From Microbacterium hydrocarbonoxydans (GTDB taxonomy: Bacteria; Actinomycetota; Actinomycetes; Actinomycetales; Microbacteriaceae), in NCBI RefSeq assembly GCF_011752045.1, contig NZ_JAAKXW010000001.1, forward strand, positions 744,001 through 808,000: a stretch of 64,000 nt of DNA, in the 5' to 3' direction. Positions 35,500 to 54,809 of this stretch are shown piece by piece. Each line of letters begins with the position of its first letter. Positions within the stretch are counted from its first letter, which is position 1. Below the pieces are notes generated by a model. The model was not told where the DNA came from, ran no database searches, and saw only the letters and a list, made by a program, of their open reading frames with translations. The translations under genes were made by a program, and so were the position numbers.

Positions 35500-36512
35500 T
35501 GACCACCCCTATCCTCGACATCCGCGACCTGCGAGTGACCTTCCCCACCGACGACGGCCTCGTCCACGCCGTGAACGGCATGGACCTCACCGTGCAGCGC
35601 GGAGAGACCGTCGGCATCGTCGGCGAGTCCGGTTCCGGCAAGACCGTCACCAGCCAGACCCTGATGGGGCTGCTCAAGGGCACCAGCGCGAAGGTCTCCG
35701 GCCGGATCCTCTTCGAGGGCACCGACCTGGTGCCCCTCAGCGAGAGCGAGATGCGCCCCTACCGCGGTCGGAAGATCGGCATGATCTTCCAGGACCCGCT
35801 GTCCGCGATGCACCCGTTCTACACGGTCGGAAAGCAGATCTCCGAGGCATACCGCGTCCACAACAGGGTGAGCGCGAAGGCCGCCAAGGCGCAGGCGATC
35901 GAGATGCTCAACCGCGTCGGCATCCCCGACCCGGTGTCGCGATACGACGCCTACCCGCACGAGTTCTCCGGCGGAATGCGTCAGCGCGCGATGATCGCCA
36001 TGGCGCTCATCTGCGAGCCGGAGCTGCTCATCGCGGACGAGCCGACCACCGCACTGGACGTGACCGTGCAGGCGCAGATCCTGGATCTGATCTCCTCGCT
36101 GCAGGCTGAGACCGGCTCAGCGGTGATCTTCGTGACGCACGACCTCGGCGTGGTCGCAGAGGTGTGCAAGCGCGTGGTCGTCATGTACGGCGGGCAGTGC
36201 GTGGAGGAGGCCGACGTGCAGGACGCGTTCTTCCGCACCGGCCATCCGTACACCAAGGGCCTGCTCGCCTCGATGCCGTCGATGGCCGATGAGGTGGGGC
36301 GACTCACTCCGATCCCCGGATTCCCGCCCTCCCTGCTGAACCTTCCGACCGGATGCCTCTTCGCGGACCGGTGCCCGGTGTCGCACCTCGTCCCCGGAGA
36401 CCGCTGCCGCACCGAACGGCCGGAGCTCCACAGCGACGGCACCCACCGTTCCCGCTGCCATCTCGCGGAACTTCCCGCCACTCTTCCCACCCCCGTGGAG
36501 GCCACCCGATGA
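35499..36512 (+). CDS. ABC transporter ATP-binding protein, DppD-like
   Basis: This 337-residue ATPase has Walker A GESGSGKT, a Q-loop in [11 protein letters not shown], signature [14 protein letters not shown], Walker [14 protein letters not shown] and the switch His in FVTHDLG. The C-terminal oligopeptide/dipeptide extension carries the conserved cysteines (GCLFADRCP) found in the Fe-S-binding OppD/DppD family. It starts at ATG 35499 within the permease stop and overlaps the next gene by 4 nt. Confidence 0.93.
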
Positions 36513-50494: not shown

Positions 50495-50500
50495 TAGCGT
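50495..50500 (+). promoter_or_regulatory. -10 box (TAGCGT) of the oligopeptidase gene, leaderless start
   Basis: TAGCGT is followed by 7 nt and GTG 50508, which is therefore preferred to the in-frame GTG at 50499. Confidence 0.45.
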
Positions 50501-50507
50501 GGAGCGC

Positions 50508-52604
50508 GTGACTGATGCTCCTCGCGCCGCCCGCCGCTCGACCCTCCGCACGCACCATGGCGACACGTTCGACGATCCCTACGAGTGGCTGCGTGAGAAG
50601 GAGTCCCCCGAGGTCGTCGCGCATCTCGAGGCGGAGAACGCCCACACGGATGCCGCGACAGCCCATCTCGAGGGCCTGCGCGAGCAGCTCTTCCAGGAGA
50701 TCAAGGGCCGCGTGCAGGAGACGGACCTGTCCGTGCCGACCCGGCGCGGCGACTGGTGGTATTACAGCCGCACCGAAGAGGGGTCGCAGTACGGCATCCA
50801 CTGCCGCACTGCGGCCGCCGCGGGCGACTGGACGCCGCCGGTGCTCCAGCCCGGTGTCCCGGTGCCCGGCGAGATCGTGCTGCTGGACGGCAATGCGGAG
50901 GCGGAGGGGCACGAGTTCTTCTCCCTGGGCGCCTTCGACACGTCCGACGACGCGACGCGGCTGCTGTGGTCGACCGACTTCGAAGGCGACGAGCTCTACA
51001 CGGTGCACGTGCGCGACCTCGTGACGGGCGAGACGCTGGCCGACGAGATCCCGGACACGAGCGGCGCGTTCTTCACACCGGACGGCACCGGCGTCGTCTA
51101 CACCACCCGCGACGAGGCGTGGAGGCCGGACACGCTGTGGCTGCACCGCATCGGCACCCCCGTCGCCGAGGACGTGAAGCTCTTCCACGAACCCGACGAG
51201 CGCTTCTGGCTCGGCGCAGGCATCACCCGGAGCCGGAAGTACCTCGTGATCGGCGTCGGCTCGAGCATCACGAGCGAGGAGTACATCGTCGATCTCGACG
51301 GTGACCTCACCGCGGAGCCCCGGCTGGTCTGGCCCCGGCAGGAGGGAGTGGAGTACTCGTTCGAGCATGCGGTGGTCGACGGCGAGGACCGGCTGTACAT
51401 CCTGCACAACCGCGATGCGCTCGACTTCGAGCTCGTGTCGGTGGCCGCCGCCGACCCGCAGGGCGAGCAGCGCGTGGTGCTGGCCCACGAGCCGGGACGG
51501 CGACTGCTCGGCATGGATGCCTTCCGGGACTTCGGCACCGTCGAGTACCGCAGAGAGGGCCTCGAGCGCGTCGCATTGCTCGACTACGCCACGGACTCCC
51601 TGGAGGATGTCGCGTTCGACGAGCCGCTCTACTCCGCCGGGGTCAGCGGGAACCCGGAGTGGCACTCCCCCTTCCTCCGCCTCGGCTACGCCTCCTTCGT
51701 CACCCCCGGCACGGTCTACGAGCTCGAGCTCGCCACGCGCCGGCTCGTGCTGCGAAAGCAGGTGCCCGTGCTCGGCGGCTACGATCCGGCCGACTACGGG
51801 CAGCGACGCGACTGGGCGACGGCGACCGACGGAACCCTGGTGCCGATCTCGCTGGTCTGGAAGCGGTCGTTCGGGGAGCCGGGCTCCGAGGTGCGCCCTC
51901 TCCACCTGTACGGGTACGGGTCGTACGAGCACTCGATCGACCCCGGCTTCTCCGTGGCCCGGCTCTCCGAGCTCGACCGCGGCGTCATCTTCGCCGTCGC
52001 GCACGTCCGCGGTGGCGGCGAGATGGGCCGGCAGTGGTACGAGGACGGCAAGCTGCTGAAGAAGAGGAACACCTTCACCGACTTCGTGGCCTGCGCCGAG
52101 CATCTGGTCGCCGCCGGGGTGACCTCTCCGGACCGCCTCGTCGCCGAAGGCGCCAGCGCGGGCGGACTGCTGATGGGCGCGGTGACGAATCTCGCGCCGT
52201 CGCTGTTCGCGGGAGTGCTCGCCGGCGTGCCGTTCGTGGACGCGCTCACGACGATCCTCGACCCCTCGCTGCCGCTCACGGTCATCGAGTGGGACGAATG
52301 GGGCGACCCGCTGCACGGCGCGGACGTCTACGAGTACATGAAGTCGTACACGCCGTACGAGAACGTCCGCGACGGCATCCGCTACCCGCGCATCCTCGCG
52401 GTCACCTCCCTCAACGACTCGCGCGTGATGTACGTCGAGCCCGCGAAATGGGTCGCGCGGCTGCGCGACGCGGGAGCATCCGACGTCCTGCTGAAGTGCG
52501 AGATGGTCGCCGGGCACGGCGGCGTGAGCGGGCGCTACAACTCCTGGAAGGAGCGCGCCTTCGAGCTGGCCTGGATCCTCGACGTCCTCGGACTCGCGGG
52601 CTGA
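50508..52604 (+). CDS. ptrB: Oligopeptidase B (S9A prolyl oligopeptidase family)
   Basis: This 698-residue cytoplasmic serine peptidase has an N-terminal seven-bladed propeller (HGDTFDDPYEWLREKESPEV at the start) and a C-terminal alpha/beta hydrolase. The catalytic Ser550 is in EGASAGGLLMG, the Asp is about D637 in SLNDSRV and His670 in GHGGVSGRY. GYGSYEHSIDPGF and RGGGEMGRQWYEDGKLL are typical of oligopeptidase B, which cuts after Lys or Arg in short peptides. Length fits. It is transcribed alone. Confidence 0.93.
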   Translation: MTDAPRAARRSTLRTHHGDTFDDPYEWLREKESPEVVAHLEAENAHTDAATAHLEGLREQLFQEIKGRVQETDLSVPTRRGDWWYYSRTEEGSQYGIHCRTAAAAGDWTPPVLQPGVPVPGEIVLLDGNAEAEGHEFFSLGAFDTSDDATRLLWSTDFEGDELYTVHVRDLVTGETLADEIPDTSGAFFTPDGTGVVYTTRDEAWRPDTLWLHRIGTPVAEDVKLFHEPDERFWLGAGITRSRKYLVIGVGSSITSEEYIVDLDGDLTAEPRLVWPRQEGVEYSFEHAVVDGEDRLYILHNRDALDFELVSVAAADPQGEQRVVLAHEPGRRLLGMDAFRDFGTVEYRREGLERVALLDYATDSLEDVAFDEPLYSAGVSGNPEWHSPFLRLGYASFVTPGTVYELELATRRLVLRKQVPVLGGYDPADYGQRRDWATATDGTLVPISLVWKRSFGEPGSEVRPLHLYGYGSYEHSIDPGFSVARLSELDRGVIFAVAHVRGGGEMGRQWYEDGKLLKKRNTFTDFVACAEHLVAAGVTSPDRLVAEGASAGGLLMGAVTNLAPSLFAGVLAGVPFVDALTTILDPSLPLTVIEWDEWGDPLHGADVYEYMKSYTPYENVRDGIRYPRILAVTSLNDSRVMYVEPAKWVARLRDAGASDVLLKCEMVAGHGGVSGRYNSWKERAFELAWILDVLGLAG

Positions 52605-52654: not shown

Positions 52655-52739
52655 CTCGCGGGAACAGGCGATCACGCCGCGGCAGGCCTTCCGCGACCAC
52701 ATCCGCCTGCTCGCGCATGATCGCCTGTCCCGGCGCGAG
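52655..52739. repeat. Palindromic extragenic element, upstream copy
   Basis: CTCGCGGGAACAGGCGATCA is mirrored by TGATCGCCTGTCCC and CGCGAG, with a nested GCAGGC/GCCTGC pair, making an imperfect hairpin of 85 nt. It shares GCAGGCCTTC, TCCGCCTG, CTCGCG and TCGCCTG in the same order with the element at 53689-53759 on the other side of the AbiEi/DUF559 gene. The rest of the 52605-52834 gap shows nothing else I can name. Confidence 0.7.
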
Positions 52740-52834
52740 CGGACTCCTTCTGCACCGATGCCCGATCGGAGCGAGTTCGTCGATCTGACGTGCACCGCGT
52801 CAGCGCAACCGAAGATACGGGCCATCATCGCGGG

Positions 52835-53674
52835 ATGAAGTCTTTGCGACAGTGGATGCACGAGCACGGCGACGTGGCTCATTCCTCGGTCCTCCGCAGC
52901 GCCGGCTACACCGACCATCAGATCCGGGATGCCGTGCAGAAGGGGACGCTGCTCCGGGTGCGCCGTTCGTGGCTCGTGACGCCTGCCTGCTCCCCCGCCG
53001 CGTTCGCCGCCGCATCGGTCGGCGGGCGCGTCACATGCGTGACCGCGGCTCGCGAGCTCGGGCTGTGGACGCCGGCGTCGGATGCAAAGCCCGTTCATGT
53101 GGCGCTCCCGCACTCGGCGTCGCGCATCCCGCCGATCGGCGTGCTCGTCCATCGCGCCACGGGCCCTGTGCCGACAGCGCGGCGGGCGAGCCGCGAGCCG
53201 CTGTTGAACACTCTCTTCCACGTCGCCCGCTGCCTCGCCCCGGTGCAGGCTCTCGCCGTCTGGGAGTCGGCGATCAGGACCGGGCTGACCGACGCGGAGC
53301 ACCTGCGACGCACCGAGTGGTGCAGCCGCCCTGCGCGTCGGCTCGCGGAGCGCTCGGAGCACTTGTCGGACTCGGGCCTGGAGACCCACTTCGTCGAGCT
53401 GATGCGGCAGGTCGGGGTCGCCGTACGACAGCAGGTCTGGATCGACGGTCGGCCCGTCGACGCGCTCATCGGCGACCGGTTGATCGTCCAGCTCGACGGC
53501 TTCGCGCATCACCAGGGCAGGGACCGCCGCCGAGACATCGCCGCGGATGCCCGGCTCGTCCTGCTCGGCTTCACCGTGCTGCGGTTCGACTACCACCAGC
53601 TCCTGTTCCAGCCGGAGTTCGTGACGCACACCGTGCTCACCGCGATCGCCCAGGGCCTGCACCGCATCCGGTGA
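52835..53674 (+). CDS. AbiEi-type wHTH plus DUF559 (Vsr-like) endonuclease-domain protein
   Basis: This 279-residue protein has an N-terminal winged-helix, AbiEi-antitoxin-like domain (HGDVAHSSVLRSAGYTDHQIRDAV then GTLLRVRRSWL). The C-terminal DUF559/Vsr-like PD-(D/E)xK domain shows LETHFVELM (Glu), VDALIGDRLIVQLDGFAHH (Asp and Glu/Gln-type positions), RDRRRDIAADARLVLLGFTVLRF. The usual catalytic E-x-Q/K reads V-Q-L here. It might nick or bind DNA. No toxin gene is adjacent, and it is flanked by two related palindromic elements. ATG 52835 begins at the wHTH. Confidence 0.8.
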   Translation: MKSLRQWMHEHGDVAHSSVLRSAGYTDHQIRDAVQKGTLLRVRRSWLVTPACSPAAFAAASVGGRVTCVTAARELGLWTPASDAKPVHVALPHSASRIPPIGVLVHRATGPVPTARRASREPLLNTLFHVARCLAPVQALAVWESAIRTGLTDAEHLRRTEWCSRPARRLAERSEHLSDSGLETHFVELMRQVGVAVRQQVWIDGRPVDALIGDRLIVQLDGFAHHQGRDRRRDIAADARLVLLGFTVLRFDYHQLLFQPEFVTHTVLTAIAQGLHRIR

Positions 53675-53688
53675 GCCGTGCCGCCGAC

Positions 53689-53759
53689 GCAGGCCTTCGA
53701 GCAAGAACAGGCGAATGCCTGCGCATTCCGCCTGTTCTCGCGTGGTCGCCTGATGCGAG
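53689..53759. repeat. Palindromic extragenic element, downstream copy
   Basis: GAACAGGCGAATGC (53705-53718) pairs with GCATTCCGCCTGTTC (53723-53737) around a 4-nt loop with one bulged C. GCAGGCCTTC (53689) and CTCGCG...TCGCCTG are shared with the copy upstream of the gene, in the same orientation. Confidence 0.7.
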
Positions 53760-53780: not shown

Positions 53781-54809
53781 TCAGCCGAAGAGCGTGGCCG
53801 CGGCGTCGTAGCGGTAGCGCGGCACCGTGTTCAGCTCGCCGAGCGCCTCCGCGAACGGGACCCGCACGATCTCGGTGCCCTGCATCGCGACCATCTGGCC
53901 CCAGGCCCCGTCGACGACGGCATCCGCCGCATGCATGCCGAGGCGCGTGGCGAGCACCCGGTCGAACGCCGACGGCGCACCGCCGCGCTGGATGTGGCCG
54001 AGAATGGTCGCCCGCGTCTCGATCCCCGTGATCCGCTCGATCTCGGGGGCGAGCTGGTCGCCGATGCCTCCCAGCCGAGGGCGGTTGAAGGCGTCCAGGC
54101 CCTTGTCGCTGTACGCCTCATCCATGCCGAGCAGCTTGAAGCCCTCCGAGACGACGACGAGCGGCGCGCGACCGCGGTCGTGCGCGCTGGTGACGAGTTC
54201 GGCGATCTCCTCGAGGGACATCGGCACTTCAGGGATGCAGATGGCGTGCGCTCCGGCAGCCATTCCGGCATGCAGGGCGATCCAGCCGACGTGACGTCCC
54301 ATGACCTCGGCCACCATGCAGCGCTTGTGCGAGTCGCCGGTGGTGCGCAGGCGGTCCATGGCCTCGGTGGCGATGTTCACCGCGGTGTCGAAGCCGAACG
54401 AGTAGTCGGTCGCACGCAGGTCGTTGTCGATCGTCTTCGGGACGCCGACGACGTTGATGCCGTCCTTCGCGAGGCGGTCGGCGGCGGCCAGAGTGCCCTC
54501 GCCGCCGATCGCGATGATGCCGTCGATCTTGTGGCCGTACAGCGTCTTGGCGATGTTCTCCGCACCGCCGCGCTCACCCTCGTAGGGGTTGGTCCGGCTG
54601 GTGCCGAGGATCGTGCCGCCGACCTTCGAGAGCCCCTTGACCTCGTGCCGGGTGAGCGGGAAGAAGTCGCCGTCGACGACGCCGCGCCAGCCGTCTCGGA
54701 TGCCGACGAACTCGAGGTCGTAGACCTGGGTGCCTTTCAGCACGATCGCACGGATGACCGCATTGAGTCCGGGACAGTCGCCACCGCTCGTCAGGATGCC
54801 GATCTTCAT
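53781..54809 (-). CDS. pfkA: 6-phosphofructokinase, group III type
   Basis: This 342-residue enzyme phosphorylates fructose 6-phosphate in glycolysis. The N-terminal GILTSGGDCPGLNAVIR, AIGGEGTLAAA, VPKTIDNDLR (catalytic Asp in T-I-D-N-D) and VAEVMGRHVGWIAL are characteristic. The phosphoryl-donor position after GGE is Gly, as in ATP-dependent enzymes, while the residue before TIDND is Lys, as in PPi-dependent ones; this mix is that of actinobacterial group III Pfk, usually ATP-dependent. A -10-like TAGTGT lies about 60 nt upstream. Confidence 0.92.
   Translation of the reverse strand: MKIGILTSGGDCPGLNAVIRAIVLKGTQVYDLEFVGIRDGWRGVVDGDFFPLTRHEVKGLSKVGGTILGTSRTNPYEGERGGAENIAKTLYGHKIDGIIAIGGEGTLAAADRLAKDGINVVGVPKTIDNDLRATDYSFGFDTAVNIATEAMDRLRTTGDSHKRCMVAEVMGRHVGWIALHAGMAAGAHAICIPEVPMSLEEIAELVTSAHDRGRAPLVVVSEGFKLLGMDEAYSDKGLDAFNRPRLGGIGDQLAPEIERITGIETRATILGHIQRGGAPSAFDRVLATRLGMHAADAVVDGAWGQMVAMQGTEIVRVPFAEALGELNTVPRYRYDAAATLFG

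Follow-up and report, generated by a model that had tools for sequence, protein, structure and literature searches.

The DNA described here is a window of 64,000 nucleotides from Microbacterium hydrocarbonoxydans, whose genome measures 3.65 Mb. A gene of the DUF559 family lies in it between two short palindromic elements, E1 and E2, in the gap between an S9 peptidase gene and the phosphofructokinase gene. The features of the locus are as follows:

50499..52604, + strand: prolyl oligopeptidase (S9) gene (Pfam); left end of the insertion site
52659..52732, + strand: element E1, a 74-nt palindrome with two left units and inverted copies (sequence; inverted repeat I3; model R1; fold)
52835 (ATG)..53674 (TGA), + strand: DUF559 gene, 279 aa (Pfam DUF559, 3.8e-9; AlphaFold2 model, pLDDT 91)
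52835..53365, + strand: AbiEi-like N-terminal part, about residues 1-177, a putative DNA-reading head (Foldseek match to 6y8q_A; weak profiles)
53366..53671, + strand: Vsr/EDxHD-like nuclease domain, about residues 178-279 (structure matches; alignments A3 and A5)
53685..53757, + strand: element E2, a 73-nt palindrome whose left outer unit is degenerate (sequence; inverted repeat I6; BLAST; fold)
53781..54809, - strand: phosphofructokinase gene (pfk; Pfam/NCBIfam), whose 3' end is the right end of the site

The DUF559 gene and pfk are convergent, and the S9 gene lies on the other side. S9 and pfk are neighbours in relatives whether the cassette is present or not, wherever the fetched locus extends that far, and pfk is present in all 79 genomes of our genus sample. 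Three identities were rejected: that of a known RNA for the element, because no Rfam family reaches its gathering score within the window; a phage origin, because there is no PHROG match at E 0.1; and that of an AbiE toxin-antitoxin system, because no AbiEii toxin gene adjoins the DUF559 gene, its neighbours being the S9 peptidase gene and pfk.

Structure of the elements

E1 ends 102 nt before the ATG and E2 begins 10 nt after the stop codon, in agreement with an earlier note on this DNA, which had placed two related hairpins within about 200 bases upstream and 15 bases downstream of the gene. Both are imperfect palindromes with BLAST copies elsewhere in the genome, and when folded as single strands of DNA together with a few bases of flank, both do better than their shuffles (E1, z -3.5, with 1 of 200 shuffles as good; E2, z -4.4, with 0 of 200). 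The word GAACAGGCG occurs three times in the window, against 0.75 expected, and always within E1 or E2. In E1 it is found at 52662, while the second left unit, near 52682, is degenerate; in E2 the inner GAACAGGCG is at 53705 and the outer left unit is degenerate. The observation in the earlier note stands in all points save one, namely that the common words follow in the same order: E1 has GAACAGGCG before GCAGGCCTTC, whereas E2 has GCAGGCCTTC before GAACAGGCG. The reason is that each has a pair of left-hand units, of which the degenerate member is not the same in E1 as in E2.

In an alignment of E1, E2, and five other copies from the same genome (A2), the element unit consists of two direct GAACAGGCG-like words 18 nt apart, a variable loop, and two inverted copies; the copy at C1:1026388 is without the outer left unit. 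Because RNA-style covariation over the seven own-genome copies was unconvincing against shuffles, we treat the structure as a DNA palindrome.

The predicted enzyme

In the AlphaFold2 model of the 279-aa protein, the C-terminal domain has its closest solved nuclease fold in I-Bth0305I (3r3p; Z 13.3 over 96 residues, rmsd 2.4), and it also matches NGO0050 (3hrl; Z 12.2) and Vsr (1cw0, Z 10.5; 1vsr, Z 10.1). The N-terminal part matches the AbiEi antitoxin chain 6y8q_A in Foldseek (E 5.7e-5), and residues 1-178 align with 6y8q at Z 6.3, a middling score that is not decisive by itself; the AbiEi profile matches are weak (best 0.0033). On this model, the protein would join an AbiEi-like part to a Vsr/I-Bth0305I-like nuclease. 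Residues D209, D221, H226, R231, and D234 are invariant in two alignments (A3, 19 sequences; A5, 51 sequences), and E183 is near-invariant in A5. D209, D221, H226, and D234, together with E183, look compatible with an EDxHD motif. Where E/Q-x-D usually has E, this subfamily has Q (Q219), a point that counts against the reading proposed below; four of the five paralogues from the same genome have E there.

Flanking repeats of relatives and paralogues

In the genus sample, 33 relatives of the DUF559 gene were found at E<=1e-60 in 28 of the 79 genomes, and 30 loci, including that of the window, were fetched. They were searched with R1, a covariance model built from seven own-genome copies, E1 and E2 included. 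At E<=0.05, R1 matches on both sides of the gene in 25 loci, on one side in two (L127 and L146), and on neither side in three (L151, L153, and L154). These five exceptions, and the five own-genome paralogues recovered by protein search, are bordered on either side by repeats of other kinds, most of them palindromic; at L151, for example, the gene of genome G011 has a 79-bp repeat, 97% identical, on each side. Orthologous genes without such flanks, which the earlier note had named as contrary evidence, are thus not the rule, and the comparison of paralogue flanks that it had suggested finds repeats there too, if weakly at one locus (L071). An early view that the paralogues had no repeats came from a search with R1 words, which gave no inverted pair, and it was overturned when the other repeats were found.

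When the best match between the upstream and downstream flanks was scored, 34 of the 35 loci (30 relatives and five paralogues) exceeded the 95th percentile (30.0 bits) of 88 window controls, and the five R1 exceptions reached 36 to 119 bits. The locus below that percentile, L140, yet has R1 on both sides. L071 is the weakest paralogue, with 36.3 bits over 34 nt, and the 30 pfk control loci do not rise above 30 bits. One window control, at 36200, scored 61.4 bits; it was dropped as a counter-example because its flanks look by eye like tandem genes, presumably for ABC-transporter ATPases. The six DUF559 paralogues of this one genome have six different flank families (that of L071 weak), and each of the elements of the five other paralogues is found at two or three further places in the genome at E<1e-3. 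A seventh PF04480 match, a weak one, lies at C2:73515. Judging from the outer flanks of 13 loci, the gene clade occupies at least three different chromosomal neighbourhoods.

A second collection, the best 80 of 108 relatives in public bacterial genomes, overlaps the genus sample, with several assemblies in common, and consists of Microbacterium and other Microbacteriaceae. Here, 66 of the 80 loci are above the 99th percentile (34.7 bits) and 68 above the 95th percentile of 308 within-locus controls, and 14 fail the test at the former level; one of the 66, L222, scores through the duplicated target described below. The test is passed by 35 of 40 loci beside pfk and by 31 of 40 elsewhere. The repeated words vary widely among these loci, and a few passing loci (L253 and L261, for example) have a matching segment that does not score as self-complementary on the measure applied. 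In a phylum-wide sample of PF04480 genes (25 usable of 29 loci considered, that of the window left out), eight of the 25 exceed the 99th percentile of 300 cross-locus controls, five of them with palindromic repeats, and for this reason we do not extend the arrangement to DUF559 proteins in general. The strongest PF04480 matches in that sample (L297-L301) lie in short open frames of 90-254 aa, and in the four of these loci that could be tested no flank match exceeds the 99th percentile.

Dispersed copies

In BLAST searches, E1 alone finds two other sites in the genome at 1.5e-5, and E2 alone finds one, C1:637281, at 2e-6. R1, which matches E1 at 67 bits (E1 being among its building sequences), has eight separate sites at E<1e-3 in the 3.65-Mb genome: E1, E2, and six others, of which one, C1:93117, is outside the model-building set. 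Within the window, a hairpin at 45438-45484 matches only the inner part of R1 (2e-5 for the window, 0.001 for the genome) and may be an ordinary terminator.

Across the genus, R1 matches occur in 59 of the 79 genomes. The dispersed copies that the earlier note had proposed to look for exist, and the paralogue elements are dispersed too. The counts per genome cover both strands among the matches listed and are meaningful as relative values only. On these counts, the median is 24 in genomes with the gene versus 2 in genomes without it (Mann-Whitney p 1.3e-7, uncorrected for phylogeny), and at least one match is found in 27 of the 28 genomes with a close gene relative versus 32 of the 51 without. 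The earlier note would have abandoned the cassette had the element occurred widely with no link to this gene family; occurrence without the gene is real, in those 32 genomes, but the matches there are few. In one genome, four R1 elements stand in a row, about 200-235 nt apart (G057:C9:88431-89163).

Empty sites and a duplicated target

Comparison with relatives identifies sites where an element is present in one genome and absent in another. At C1:637275, between genes that are convergent by eye, the flanks are joined without the element in seven of eight relatives (seven aligned), and in the eighth, G033, they are split by about 140 bp; the 74-nt unit is thus missing from the orthologous site in seven of the eight. 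At C1:1169646, between divergent genes, the junction is spanned without added length in all eight relatives (three aligned). An element of another family, at C2:514579, is absent from G001; no other relative has a match across the junction. At C3:271908, an R1 element (G000:C3:271908-271981) lies in frame within a reading frame, and the stretch is 23 residues longer than in G002. The GGDGTL motif of this frame suggests a diacylglycerol-kinase-like protein, and a further repeat that resembles a palindrome is close by. The relatives are too diverged for exact insertion ends or short target duplications to be made out at these sites.

The S9-pfk gap itself was followed through 30 pfk loci. Depending on the relative, it holds the cassette, a solo element (L158, L163, L170, and L175), or just a short gap (for example, L161, L162, L164, L165, and L169). 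Empty versions of the site, for which the earlier note had suggested a search, therefore exist alongside solo versions, and empty versions of other sites are found too. Two loci from two genomes, L160 and L174, were initially counted as gaps without a DUF559 gene, and that count was dropped because a different Vsr-like clade (MTES_1575/DUF559) sits there between pfk and S9, with its own palindromic repeats on each side, read by eye.

In Microbacterium ginsengisoli (L222), the cassette with both of its elements lies between two 128-bp copies, 96% identical, of the S9-pfk junction, at -341..-217 upstream and +132..+256 downstream of the gene. The duplication takes in the last 16 codons of pfk. 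This repeat is a duplicated target, and it is a single case: in a scan of 114 loci, none of the others among the 45 strongest flank matches looked like a target duplication.

A common architecture that diversifies with the protein

What the elements have in common was counted over 138 elements from 69 loci: 65 of the 80 in the second collection, chosen for a flank match of more than 34.7 bits and at least 45 nt, and four of the five paralogues, with L222 and L071 left out. The two copies at a locus, and loci that are orthologous, cannot be taken as independent in the counts that follow. Direct 6-mer repeats occur at a lag of 18 nt in 56 of the 138 elements and at 19 nt in 52, against about three expected for each, and the next highest lag in the 8-59-nt range is seen in nine elements. 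A 7-bp inverted pair is found in 131 of the 138 (28.5 expected). In other words, one architecture recurs across the families: two tandem units 18-19 nt apart and their inverted copies.

Element similarity follows protein similarity (Spearman rho 0.42; 0 of 2000 permutations reach it), and it does so off synteny as well. Of 2346 pairs, 1690 have no detected nucleotide match beyond the cassette, a filter through which diverged shared neighbours could slip, and for these rho is 0.25 (again 0 of 2000 permutations).

A nuclease and its proposed cognate palindromes

We consider it likely that the DUF559 nuclease and its cognate palindromes of about 74 nt form a selfish pair, in which the gene with two copies is the autonomous version. 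The palindromes themselves would be short non-autonomous elements. In each half of the palindrome, the tandem GAACAGGCG-like units, which lie 18-19 nt from one another, may be read by the AbiEi-like N-terminal part, and the Vsr/I-Bth0305I-like domain would nick or cut at the palindrome, probably as a dimer. New copies elsewhere could then arise when the palindrome, cut or extruded, is repaired or inserted, and the gene flanked by two copies may move as a cassette now and then. What the analysis shows is the bracket, the dispersed copies, the co-diversification, the empty sites, one duplicated target, and the predicted fold, and from there on we infer binding, cutting, dimerisation, and the copying route. 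The earlier note had likened the locus to a mobile cassette, or to a REP-type element with a resident nuclease, and the dispersed copies, the empty sites, and the paralogue flanks all speak for that comparison.

Gene-element association alone gives no direction, and the protein could bind the repeats just for self-regulation. Antitoxins of the AbiEi type bind to inverted repeats in their own promoters, and a protein that uses the palindromes mainly as operators, for its own gene and a few others, would suit the AbiEi-like fold of residues 1-178, the position of E1 102 nt before the ATG, and the dispersed copies that lie between divergent genes. We regard such a regulon as improbable, because copies also occur downstream of the gene, between convergent 3' ends, and within a reading frame, and because it needs no invariant nuclease residues, no solo copies at a site without the gene, and no target duplication.

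The chance seems slimmer still that another enzyme spreads the palindromes and that DUF559 genes merely sit in palindrome-rich regions. Three genomes without a close gene relative (G052, G064, and G069) have 40, 34, and 39 R1 matches among those listed, as such a passenger gene would predict; they would also be explained by loss of the gene or by a paralogue that is further removed. A passenger would not be expected to show six different flank families around six paralogues of one genome (one of them weak), nor element and protein diversity that co-vary even off synteny, and the pfk control loci have no flank match above 30 bits. Among possible spreading enzymes, the sole transposase type searched was the RAYT-type Y1 (PF01797), which is nearly absent: at E<=0.001 it is found in just one of the 79 genomes, G040, which has no R1 match, and RAYT-driven REPs were rejected on this ground. 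That the elements are ordinary terminators or insulators around an unrelated gene is very improbable, even with E2 between convergent genes and one weak terminator-like match inside it, because elements also sit between divergent genes and within a reading frame, the 18-19-nt tandem period is no terminator feature, and the families are dispersed and matched to the gene clade.

A selfish pair of nuclease and palindrome would matter in several ways. DUF559 genes are common (of 119 genomes in a phylum-wide sample, 49 have PF04480) and largely unexplained, and partner palindromes for many of them make them a system open to testing. Should the palindromes be moved by the nuclease, interspersed palindromic repeats of bacteria would have had at least two origins, with unrelated enzymes, and a new DNA-mobility chemistry would serve a non-autonomous element. 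Matched nuclease heads and target units within one genome also pose a code-breaking problem: which residues read which unit.

No earlier description of DUF559 genes with such palindromes was found in a search of open-access literature, most subscription papers being outside it. In that literature, DUF559 together with AbiEi gave nothing, and neither did the combination of extragenic palindromic, Actinobacteria, RAYT, and nuclease. Judged by title and abstract opening, the entries for DUF559 announce no such repeats, those for DUF559 with palindromic concern other subjects only, and nothing relevant appeared among the open-access entries listed for palindromic or dispersed repeats with Vsr in actinobacteria or for REP in Microbacterium.

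Comparison with known systems

The system shares parts with several known ones. With AbiE it shares the AbiEi fold of residues 1-178; unlike in AbiE, that part is fused to a nuclease domain and has no adjacent AbiEii nucleotidyltransferase toxin. With the Vsr repair endonuclease and the DUF559 protein VsrA of Caulobacter it shares the nuclease fold (Z 10.5 to Vsr), and it differs from them in the extra AbiEi-like N-terminal part, in the bracket of palindromes, and in having no methyltransferase among the two genes that flank it.

The nearest catalytic fold is that of the EDxHD homing endonuclease I-Bth0305I (Z 13.3), in which, as we propose for our protein, the nuclease is tied to a DNA-reading part. 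I-Bth0305I is reported to dimerise on a target of nearly 60 bp (PMC3943268), which makes it plausible that a dimer of the DUF559 protein could read the four units of a 74-nt palindrome. Unlike I-Bth0305I, the DUF559 gene has no intron or intein to be seen at it, and its elements are many, dispersed, and non-identical, inserted at unrelated sites and not at one allele. PMC3116915 describes MITEs as short and non-autonomous, with inverted arms. Our elements are likewise short, with inverted arms, and we propose that they are non-autonomous; unlike MITEs, they are palindromic through most of their length, a search for Y1 as the parent transposase type identified no parent transposon, and no short target duplication could be made out.

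The closest likeness in organisation is to the RAYT/REP system, with its REPtrons and REPINs. According to PMC8266576 and PMC3116915, a RAYT gene is mostly single-copy and is bordered by palindromes with cognates throughout the genome, a genome may contain two or more specificities, and element abundance often goes with the gene. The DUF559 gene is likewise bordered by palindromes with dispersed cognates. Unlike in a REPtron, the enzyme is Vsr/EDxHD-like with an AbiEi-like part and not an HUH Y1 (PF01797), the element consists of a doubled tandem unit (period, 18-19 nt), and the GTAG tag is not enriched: GTAG/CTAC occurs in the outer 15 nt of eight of the 138 elements, against 10.7 expected from shuffles, element ends being rough because they are taken from flank alignments. 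For tnpA-REP, no mobility is reported (PMC8266576), whereas the DUF559 clade is found in at least three neighbourhoods and with one target duplication. On organisation alone, the system could be filed under REPtron; we rate it as categorically new, because the Y1 enzyme and the GTAG tag are two defining REPtron features and both were tested and found wanting here. We lean, with some reserve, towards a class of mobile DNA in which a Vsr/EDxHD nuclease with an AbiEi reading head, and no transposase, would spread its own palindromes. Such a class would be the convergent equivalent of RAYT/REP, common throughout Microbacteriaceae and thinner in other Actinomycetota, with several mutually specific pairs per genome.
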